NCBI RefSeq assembly: GCF_003369835.1
Contig: NZ_QPMJ01000001.1
Coordinates: 558,001 to 622,000 of the forward strand
Direction: 5' to 3'
Origin: Halorussus rarus
Lineage (GTDB): Archaea > Halobacteriota > Halobacteria > Halobacteriales > Haladaptataceae
DNA: 64,000 bases
The position numbers and the translations under genes are program-made. Of this stretch, positions 7,991 to 63,272 are shown piece by piece; positions within the stretch are counted from its first letter, which is position 1, and every line of letters begins with the position of its first letter. A model generated the notes under the pieces. The model did not search any database, was not told the DNA's origin, and saw nothing but the letters and a program-made list of their open reading frames with translations.

Positions 7991-8151
7991 AGCTAGCTAC
8001 AGCCGTCACCCGTGTACCGCACACCACCGCACCGCAACCGCCCCGCGACAGCCTCACGCCTCCCCAGCCTCCTGCGGTGCTCGGCCGAAGGCCTGCGCTC
8101 CTCGTCCCTCGCGCAGAGATGGCGCGACACGAGGTCGCGCCAGCGCGCGCC
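7991..8151 (+). repeat. dispersed structured intergenic element, copy A
   Basis: 161 bp. It starts AGCTAGCTACAGCCGTCAC and ends CAGCGCGCGCC. Internal boxes CCTCCCCAGCCTC and CTCGTCCCTCGC are shared with the other four copies. The terminal hairpin is TGGCGCGAC (8120-8128), loop ACGAG, GTCGCGCCA (8134-8142), perfectly paired and abutting the 3' box. GGCC-GAA-GGCC forms a smaller internal hairpin. It begins 93 bp after the SDR stop and ends 89 bp before the ATG at 8240, pointing the same way as that gene. Confidence 0.9.
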
Positions 8152-15770: not shown

Positions 15771-16205
15771 ATGCTCTACGACGACATCGCGGACCCCGAA
15801 GCGACCTCGGCGGCGGACCTCCGGGCCGACTACGCGTCCGAACTGGCCGGCGTGATCGAGGCGCGCGGGGTCGACGCGGTCGCCGACGAGACCGGTGTCG
15901 CCGGCGAGACGCTCGAGGCGATCGCCGCGGAAGACGCCGACGCGGCCGACGACATCACGCTGGAGGACGCCGCGGCCGTCGTGGCGCTGAGCGACGAGTC
16001 CCCGGACGCCGACGCCATCGTCGCGGAGGTCCGGGACAACCTCCTGCTGGGGATGACGACCGCGGTCCTCGACGTCGACACCATCGCCGCCGAGATGGAC
16101 GACATGGACGCCAAGCAGGTCCACCAGAAGGTCGAGGGGCGCGCGCCCATGACGCTGGCCGAGTACGCGACGCTCCACCACTTCATCGCGAGTCGACAGC
16201 GGTAG
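15771..16205 (+). CDS. conserved haloarchaeal protein, likely DUF5791
   Basis: The protein is 144 aa, acidic and all-helical. The C-terminal block LLLGMTTAVLDVDTIAAEMD, VHQKVEGRAPMTLAEYATLHH looks like a small helix-turn-helix or HMG-like helical module and is what I remember of the uncharacterised DUF5791 family. No catalytic residues are evident. It follows the Get3 gene by 81 bp, behind a TATA-like TTTTACT at about 15743. Downstream lies repeat copy B. Confidence 0.7.
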   Translation: MLYDDIADPEATSAADLRADYASELAGVIEARGVDAVADETGVAGETLEAIAAEDADAADDITLEDAAAVVALSDESPDADAIVAEVRDNLLLGMTTAVLDVDTIAAEMDDMDAKQVHQKVEGRAPMTLAEYATLHHFIASRQR

Positions 16206-16278: not shown

Positions 16279-16475
16279 AGCTAGCTACTGCCGTCACCGA
16301 TGAGTTTCCGCAACCGCGACCGCAAACCTCACCCCTCCCCAGCCTCCTGCGGTGCTCGGCCAAAGGCCTGCGCTCCTCGTCCCTCACACACTTGGCGGGC
16401 CACGAGGGCCCGCCGTGGGAGCGAAGCTCCCACGAGCCTGCGGTCGCTCCGCTCACGCAGACGCCAGCGCGCGCC
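16279..16475 (+). repeat. dispersed structured intergenic element, copy B
   Basis: 197 bp with the 5' block AGCTAGCTACTGCCGTCAC, box CCTCCCCAGCCTCCTGCGGT and 3' box CAGCGCGCGCC. The main hairpin is GGCGGGCC-ACGAG-GGCCCGCC, with the same loop as copy A. It is followed by a second perfect hairpin GTGGGAG-CGAAG-CTCCCAC, absent from A, D and E. It lies between convergent genes: 73 bp after the stop at 16205 and 59 bp before the end of the minus-strand DUF7286 gene. A 63-codon reading frame inside it is not conserved between copies. Confidence 0.9.
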
Positions 16476-21158: not shown

Positions 21159-21356
21159 GGCGCGCGCTGGCGCGGCCGCCGTGCCGCGCCAGTGCGTGCG
21201 AGGGACGAGCGAACGCAGTCTTGCTGAGCGAAGCGAAGCAAGGCTCGGAAGACGAGCAAAGCGAGTCTTCCGGTGTGAGCGAGGAGGCTGGGGAGGTGTG
21301 AGGCTCGCGGTCGCGGTGCGGTTGCGGAAATTCAGTTGTGACGGCAGTAGCTAGCT
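21159..21356 (-). repeat. dispersed structured intergenic element, copy C
   Basis: 198 bp on the minus strand. The 5' block AGCTAGCTACTGCCGTCAC is at 21356-21338 and the 3' box CAGCGCGCGCC ends at 21159. The terminal hairpin is CTGGCGCGGC/GCCGCGCCAG, ten perfect pairs. The variable middle holds its own hairpins: CGGAAGAC/GTCTTCCG around an 11-nt loop, and CTTGCT/AGCAAG. It starts 79 bp after the phosphohydrolase stop and ends 84 bp before the start at 21075, pointing at that gene. Confidence 0.9.
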
Positions 21357-30284: not shown

Positions 30285-30433
30285 AGCTAGCTACTGCCGT
30301 CACCGATGAATTTCCGCACAGCACCGCCCGCACTGCGACCGCGGGCCTCACCCCTCCCCAGCCTCGGCGGCCGCCTGAACGCGGCCGCCTCCCTCGCACG
30401 CCTGGCGGACCCCAGGGTCCGCCAGCGCGCGCC
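30285..30433 (+). repeat. dispersed structured intergenic element, copy D
   Basis: 149 bp, the shortest copy. It has the 5' block AGCTAGCTACTGCCGTCAC, box CCTCCCCAGCCTC and 3' box CAGCGCGCGCC. The middle is replaced by a perfect hairpin GGCGGCCGC-CTGAAC-GCGGCCGCC, and the terminal hairpin is TGGCGGACC-CCAG-GGTCCGCCA. It begins 61 bp after the stop at 30224 and ends 75 bp before the ATPase ATG, pointing at it. No protein-coding frame with a conserved start is shared with other copies. Confidence 0.9.
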
Positions 30434-44677: not shown

Positions 44678-44799
44678 CGGGCGGCGTTAGGACGGGGGGA
44701 TATTTCCGCTTTCCGGAAGGTCGGACGCTCGCGGTGGTCGGGTCGCGGGGGTTTCGGTCTCGGGTTTCCAGTGAGTTCGCGAAGCGCGTTGCGGTCGTC

Positions 44800-44849
44800 C
44801 GGAGTTGCGGGAGGGCGAGGGTAGTGATCGGAGTTGCGGGAGGGCGAGG
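44800..44849. repeat. direct repeat, 21-bp unit, two copies
   Basis: CGGAGTTGCGGGAGGGCGAG(G) at 44800-44820 and again at 44829-44849, without mismatch, separated by 8 bp. The second copy ends 2 bp before the 5' block of repeat copy E, so the direct repeat abuts the element. Confidence 0.88.
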
Positions 44850-44851
44850 AT

Positions 44852-45003
44852 AGCTAGCTACAGCCGTCACAACTGAATTACCGCAACCGCACAGCGACCG
44901 CGACAGCCTCGTGCCTCCCCAGCCTCCTGCGGTGCTCGCTTCGCTGTGCTCCTCGTCCCTCGCGCACCTCGGCGGACCCCCTGTGGGTCCGCCAGCGCGC
45001 GCC
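44852..45003 (+). repeat. dispersed structured intergenic element, copy E
   Basis: 152 bp with the 5' block AGCTAGCTACAGCCGTCAC, box CCTCCCCAGCCTCCTGCGGT, box CTCGTCCCTCGC and 3' box CAGCGCGCGCC. The terminal hairpin is GGCGGACCC-CCTGT-GGGTCCGCC. It lies in a divergent gap, 175 bp from the start of the minus-strand gene and 96 bp before the enoyl-CoA hydratase ATG at 45099, pointing at the latter. The remaining part of the 421-bp gap holds only the direct repeat and a TATA-like GGATTATTCC. Confidence 0.9.
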
Positions 45004-45098
45004 GAATCATGTGTTCCGGTGCTCGATATTCACAGAAATCATCAGGTGCTTGTCCGAATCTCGGAAGGATTATTCCGCGCGGCGCCGTGGGGAGTGGT

Positions 45099-63168: not shown

Positions 63169-63272
63169 TAGTCCCGGGCGGATTCGAACCGCCGTCATGG
63201 GCTCTCTTCCGCATCGACTCGTAACTCGACACGTCCAAAGGCCCATATGATTGGCCACTACACCACGGGACT
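63169..63272 (-). tRNA. tRNA-Gln (TTG) with about 31-nt intron
   Basis: The acceptor arms AGTCCCG (63272-63266) and CGGGACT (63176-63170) pair fully, and A at 63169 is the discriminator. The T arm is GGCGG-TTCGAAT-CCGCC. The anticodon stem TGGGC/GCCCA encloses C-T-TTG-G, then an extra stretch of about 31 nt, then A; removing it leaves a 7-nt loop with anticodon TTG and a 73-nt tRNA. An intron after position 37 is known for haloarchaeal tRNA-Gln(UUG). CCA is not encoded. Confidence 0.9.

Follow-up and report, generated by a model that had tools for sequence, protein, structure and literature searches.

A non-coding intergenic repeat of Halorussus keeps its hairpins paired while whole hairpins are replaced, and is probably a DNA-level element of REP/PATE type

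The 64-kb stretch of the Halorussus rarus genome analysed here (the window) holds five copies, A to E, of a repeat whose terminal hairpins differ in sequence and remain paired. This raises the question whether the preserved complementarity reflects selection on a structure, as RNA or as DNA, or whether hairpins are exchanged as complete units. Covariation is normally taken as proof of a functional RNA. The Halorussus repeat is a test case for separating DNA-hairpin exchange from selection on RNA, because its strong covariation comes with next to no wobbles or half-changed pairs, its hairpins are replaced whole at sites that stay fixed, and the loops of one strand are DNA-like.

The repeat is non-coding and intergenic, typically ~150 nt long (range 100-300 nt). 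Read 5' to 3', the unit opens with GCTAGCTACTGCCGTCAC and a run of ACCGC-like units, which GCCTCACACCTCCCCAGCCTC connects to the middle hairpin slot; TCGTCCCTCGCGCG then leads from this slot to the terminal hairpin, and GCGCGCGCC comes last. The terminal hairpin stands 9 nt from the fixed 3' end GCGCGCGCC, and the conserved 5' tag GCTAGCTAC lies ~100 nt away from the terminal stem. At the 5' end there is only a GCTAGC hexamer, with no hairpin close by. As the two ends differ, terminal inverted repeats are absent. The element edges favour A outside and GCTAGC inside at the 5' boundary, and GCGCGCC inside and GR outside at the 3' boundary; the lengths of duplication at these edges equal those of shuffled pairs, so that no target site duplication (TSD) is found beyond chance.

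Copy A (7992-8151, plus strand) has its middle slot at 8073-8103 and its terminal hairpin, TGGCGCGAC-ACGAG-GTCGCGCCA, at 8120-8142. Copy B (16280-16475, plus strand), from which the question arose, extends from GCTAGCTAC to GCGCGCGCC. It contains a type 1 middle-slot hairpin with fixed mismatches at 16348-16378 (TGCG-GTG-CTC / GGCC-AAA-GGCC / TGCG-CTC-CTC), the terminal hairpin GGCGGGCC-ACGAG-GGCCCGCC at 16394-16414, a nested two-hairpin module (GTGGGAG-CGAAG-CTCCCAC-GAGCC-TGCGGTCGCTCCGCTCACGCA-GAC) that interrupts the terminal hairpin on its 3' side at 16415-16462, and the 3' end GCCAGCGCGCGCC at 16463-16475. Copy C (21159-21355) is on the minus strand, on which its terminal hairpin reads CTGGCGCGGC-ACGGCG-GCCGCGCCAG (21167-21192); a nested CGGAAGAC module lies within its middle slot. 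In copy D (30286-30433, plus strand) the middle slot is GGCGGCCGC/GCGGCCGCC (30366-30389), followed by the terminal hairpin CTGGCGGACC-CCAG-GGTCCGCCAG (30402-30425). Copy E (44853-45003, plus strand), flanked by two divergent promoters, has its middle slot at 44928-44954 and the terminal hairpin GGCGGACCC-CCTGT-GGGTCCGCC at 44971-44993.

The five differing pairs of terminal arms described in the initial annotation are all present in the sequence of copies A to E. The accompanying statement that the hairpin always abuts CAGCGCGCGCC does not hold for copy B, in which the 48-nt module at 16415-16462 splits the 3' arm from GCCAGCGCGCGCC. By itself CAGCGCGCGCC is unspecific, with further exact and one-mismatch matches in the window; an excess of this motif was rejected, as its count is near chance. 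The middle slot needed revision as well: GTGGGAG/CTCCCAC of copy B, listed as a middle-slot variant, has been inserted into the terminal hairpin instead, whereas CGGAAGAC/GTCTTCCG of copy C is an inserted module, like that of B, inside the middle slot. What truly fills the middle slot in A, B and E is a hairpin with mismatches, TGCGNTNCTC...TGCGN'TN'CTC, which had been missed.

In the genome that holds the window (G000, 4.37 Mb), the 5' motif GCTAGCTACWGCCGTCAC has 58 matches with at most two mismatches, compared to none for the reversed control. A sequence-only model yields 73 matches, some of which are two pieces of one interrupted copy, giving ~65-70 copies. The repeat is present in 17 of the 18 Halorussus genomes searched, with copy numbers from 0 to at least 150. 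Genome G009 has no copy, and the element is thus dispensable; this empty state may result from tree error or gene flow. Genome G014 has six copies, and the close relatives of both have about 70 to 115 model matches each; counts in the genomes other than these two start at 33. Among plasmids, only four from Halorussus and one from Haloarcula gave matches. An origin from a virus or phage was rejected, as a comparison with viral contigs and phages gave no match. A literature search, with most subscription papers outside its reach, found no paper on this repeat in Halorussus.

Pairing of the terminal hairpin was assessed in 35 uninterrupted copies, aligned with MAFFT without structural information. 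In this set 91.2% of the cells are paired (82.2% in shuffles), with 54 double-sided changes (17.0 in shuffles) and a covariation score of 0.281 (0.110 in shuffles); these values were reached by none of 500 shuffles and by no slid register, though the shuffles leave the kinship between copies in, and related sequences can exceed them without structure. The eight inner pairs (columns 160-167) account for 46 double-sided changes, three unpaired cells and a single wobble in 280 cells, so that half-changed states are almost absent, and the column pairs 164-167 together employ CG, GC, AU and UA. An anchor-based count of 53 distinct hairpins from several species agrees with the alignment: 194 of 212 cells at positions 5-8 are Watson-Crick pairs, with a few rows misplaced, which makes the remaining mismatch classes unreliable. 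The covariation on which the earlier proposal depended is therefore strong in the 35 aligned copies. That preserved complementarity means selection is nevertheless too strong a conclusion for the terminal hairpin alone, since swapping or templated correction also keeps arms perfect; the claim is better backed by the mismatches and loops of the middle slot.

Among 86 copies from several species, the middle slot follows the pattern TGCG-N4-T-N6-CTC ... TGCG-N4'-T-N6'-CTC. Complementarity between N4 and N6' and between N6 and N4' holds in 161 of 172 cells, where shuffles average 55 and reach 78 at most. Of the 86 copies, 79 have the constant T.T at the centre, and the C.T and T.C positions flanking it are part of the conserved motif. 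The 11 exceptions (C.C 2, G.G 2, A.A 1, T.T 1, C.T 2, A/C 2, T.G 1) are of mixed classes, so that no preponderance of wobbles is seen for either strand. Seen from the minus strand, the fixed mismatches are G.A, A.A and A.G, and the apical triplet of 50 distinct odd-length loops is GNA in 36 and TNC in one. As a wider rule, GNA loops are exceptionally stable in DNA. For the d(GCGAAGC) type of loop, exceptional stability as DNA is documented (PMC10527192). Fixed mismatches beside covarying neighbours, together with the polarity of the loops, are hard to obtain from palindrome correction alone, and these mismatches and one-sided GNA loops are the best evidence here that selection may act on a particular single-stranded fold.

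Predicted folding energies vary between copies. As DNA, the hairpin half folds far better than shuffled sequence in copies D (z -4.5) and E (z -3), and copy A is unexceptional (z -1.1 and -1.4); we believe that G.A mismatches count for little in the energy model. As RNA, copy A folds no better than shuffled sequence, and the minus strand of copy E folds better (z -3.2). The covariation of the middle slot and the GNA polarity point to one strand of the DNA, and not to RNA, as the molecule that folds, a reading of sequence patterns that rests on the scarcity of wobbles, the loop chemistry and the gene context.

The exchange of hairpins could be followed in two closely related genomes, G004 and G015 (branch lengths about 0.03 each), in which most copies occupy shared sites within DNA that is mostly 88-95% identical. 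Excluding L293/L311 as non-orthologous, 22 orthologous pairs were usable. By our reading, the middle slot is swapped for a different hairpin in at least five of the 22 (L264/L302, L295/L283, L299/L344, L306/L332 and L315/L343), while the 5' halves of the elements and the outer DNA still align. Several more pairs show coherently altered terminal arms, for example GGCGCGAC/GTCGCGCC to GGCGCGCC/GGCGCGCC in L297/L298, and in L316/L346 the terminal arms are lengthened symmetrically. Inside a head-to-head pair of copies, a 23-bp spacer is inverted between G004 and G015 (L277 1502-1789, L266 1502-1792). Similar head-to-head pairs occur at C1:630109-630387 of G004 and C2:835985-836293 of G000. In the wider pair G005/G008 the middle hairpin at the site of copy E is swapped, and the two terminal loops read AGTC and GACT. 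Within G000, middle-slot type and terminal-arm type assort independently (p 0.21).

Whole-hairpin exchange at conserved sites is thus observed directly; we infer that it proceeds by conversion, template switching or module insertion. Both arms would change together because the hairpin is replaced as a whole. Concerted evolution in the form of wholesale homogenisation was rejected for the G004/G015 pair, in which orthologues retain copy-specific letters, and near-identical copies at two sites of G003 suggest local conversion. Of the two options initially offered, selection on structure or an exchange of hairpins, the maintained structure and the exchange in two close species are both borne out, and the RNA version of the former is disfavoured.

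About sixteen copies in G000 carry inserted modules at a few recurrent positions inside the element. Each module has two hairpins with GAGCC between them, and the size is often close to 50 nt, as in copy B (48 nt). A related hairpin motif is found in other intergenic sequences with no detectable element (L388, L390, L391, L393), and one nested module is present in G004 only and absent from G015 (L325/L350). Halorussus also has a second intergenic palindromic family, CGACATATCC...GGATAGGGGTCGCTGAGACGAC (L336, L348, L388; about 1400-1600), whose L388 copy seems to hold an insertion of a CGAAAATC-type hairpin.

When G004 is compared with G015, identity in the 5' half of the element is 90-94%, and gaps take up 0-6% of the columns. 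The 60 nt to its left are 82% identical, with 23% gap columns, and the DNA 61-150 nt upstream, largely coding, is 91% identical. The element thus evolves more slowly than its left flank, part of which conversion could explain without selection. A search with concatenated flanks found no clean empty site between these two genomes: the species-specific copies tested represent internal deletion or decay, or replaced sequence. The site of copy E is compact in G009, G013 and G017, of which G009 and G017 share one junction, and no insertion there could be dated. Most other genomes carry the element at this place, so that it must have been either inserted there repeatedly or lost precisely. At this site (44720-45051; L250, L251, L252) the divergent promoters stand back to back in the three compact genomes. 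In most other species they are ~330 bp apart with the element between them, and the flanks are alike in length, not in sequence.

None of 54 copies overlaps a called gene. The orientations of the neighbouring genes (-+ 15, ++ 13, -- 13, +- 13) are evenly distributed, as judged from an in-house codon-usage heuristic that is adequate for counting overlap and orientation, and a role as promoter or terminator was rejected because these four classes are equal. Spacing to the neighbouring genes is tight, at ~79 nt to a stop codon and 132 nt to a start on the left, and 45 nt to a stop and 95 nt to a start on the right. In several species a short gene (15771-16205 in the window) lies between two oppositely oriented elements (L153, L154, L157, L158, L163, L164), and in G000 its orientation relative to its neighbours differs. 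Copies A and B coincide with breaks in gene order, a pattern that would be expected of inversions brought about by inverted copies.

Integron attC sites have variable arms, conserved pairing, one folded strand and extrahelical or mismatched bases that give polarity; their likeness to the Halorussus repeat, which lacks cassette arrays, is by analogy only. Closer parallels are found in REP/BIME sequences, which are likewise intergenic and of high copy number, with a fixed unpaired tag at one end, a GC-rich stem with complementary changes among copies, and head-to-head or tail-to-tail pairs with spacers of 20-100 bp (PMC3733652, PMC2817692); some REPs have GCGaaGC-like centres (PMC2817692). In contrast, REP/BIME units are 20-40 nt long, compared to ~150 nt with two structured slots and a C-rich stretch here, and their GTAG or CGTC tag is directly at the foot of the stem, whereas GCTAGCTAC is ~100 nt off. 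The GTAG and CGTC superfamilies go with RAYT proteins; the Halorussus repeat is archaeal, and no RAYT (Y1) was found in G000. The PATEs of Haloquadratum are haloarchaeal and non-coding, with a palindrome near an end, a conserved terminal oligonucleotide, no TSD and heterogeneous copies, as seen here (PMC3119063). Their near-terminal palindromes resemble those of resident IS605-type elements, whereas in Halorussus only the 3' end has such a palindrome and G000 has no Y1 partner. SMR-A repeats, which insert into palindromes of PATEs in Haloquadratum (PMC3119063), resemble the nested modules in being small, without visible TSD and repeatedly inserted in the palindromes of another repeat, but the modules consist of two hairpins joined by GAGCC. 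Overall the repeat appears most to resemble REP/BIME and PATE plus SMR-A families in the way it works. It is not filed as a member, because the Y1 transposase is absent from G000 and four other copy-rich genomes and a long distance separates the 5' tag from the stem.

We consider it probable, though well short of certain, that the repeat is a non-coding, DNA-level element of REP/PATE type, in which the minus strand folds and hairpins are replaced whole. The fixed 5' tag (GCTAGCTAC...), the C-rich stretch, the mismatch-bearing middle hairpin, the terminal hairpin and the 3' end would form one unit, which most likely works through its minus strand once this is single-stranded. The hairpins formed by this strand would contain G.A/A.A mismatches and GNA mini-loops, which a putative hairpin-reading protein could recognise, and hairpins may be replaced by copy-to-copy conversion, insertion of small modules or template switching. 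We infer the single-stranded form, the protein and the first spread of copies. Against this explanation stand the failure to find a cognate enzyme, the lack of a clean new insertion of the main element between close species, a species that does without any copy, the share of the slow divergence that conversion could account for, and the ordinary fold energy of copy A.

A structured RNA family, or a signal for RNA processing or termination, in which compensatory point mutations maintain hairpins of the transcript, would show the same kind of covariation; RNA often has G.A mismatches and stacked helices, and the copy E minus-strand fold (z -3.2) fits as well. Against it, wobble intermediates are nearly absent from the eight inner pairs (1/280 cells), and hairpins are replaced whole; moreover, the gene context is neutral as to orientation, the RNA fold of copy A equals its shuffles, and Rfam covariance models run on the window matched only a tRNA and nothing in the repeat. 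We therefore regard an RNA function as quite unlikely. It is also unlikely, if slightly less so, that the repeats are neutral palindromes, lacking function and a dedicated protein, that templated (quasi-palindrome) correction and conversion keep perfect. The coupled change of both arms, inverted spacers and loops, the independent assortment of middle and terminal slots and a species without any copy are all in line with this, yet correction would erase the three middle-slot mismatches that persist amid covarying neighbours, the GNA loops are polar by strand, and the 5' tag and CCTCCCC core are more conserved than the left flank.

We see a slim chance that the repeat is a PATE in the strict sense, related to IS200/IS605 but without a transposase of its own, and moved in trans by a Y1 transposase that acts on near-terminal hairpins. 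The absence of terminal inverted repeats and TSD, the terminal hairpin close to one end and the small modules nested in palindromes, like SMR-A in Haloquadratum (PMC3119063), agree with this idea, but the 5' end has no hairpin nearby and no full-length element with GCTAGCTAC/GCGCGCGCC ends was seen. A search for the Y1 transposase (PF01797), positive in five control genomes, gave no match in G000, and mobilisation by IS200/IS605 was rejected on this ground; Y1 is absent from seven other Halorussus genomes as well, four of them with more than 100 copies. The profile for Y2 HUH transposases of IS91/Helitron-like rolling-circle elements (PF04986) had no match anywhere, with the controls silent too.

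Within the favoured DNA-level reading, it is conceivable but doubtful that a candidate enzyme, neither Y1 nor any other recognised HUH transposase, reads the folded minus strand and swaps whole hairpins in place from copy to copy, with the two-hairpin modules as mobile cargo. If enzyme-driven exchange of this kind were true, species free of copies would have lost the enzyme and the elements alike. The range of copy numbers within one genus, from 0 to at least 150, offers a route to the missing enzyme via the presence and absence of genes, and G014 and G009, nearly or fully free of the element, provide a natural contrast for such a search.

Elsewhere in the window, the 104-nt tRNA recognised by Rfam at 63169-63272 (minus strand), missed by ARAGORN, probably contains an intron.
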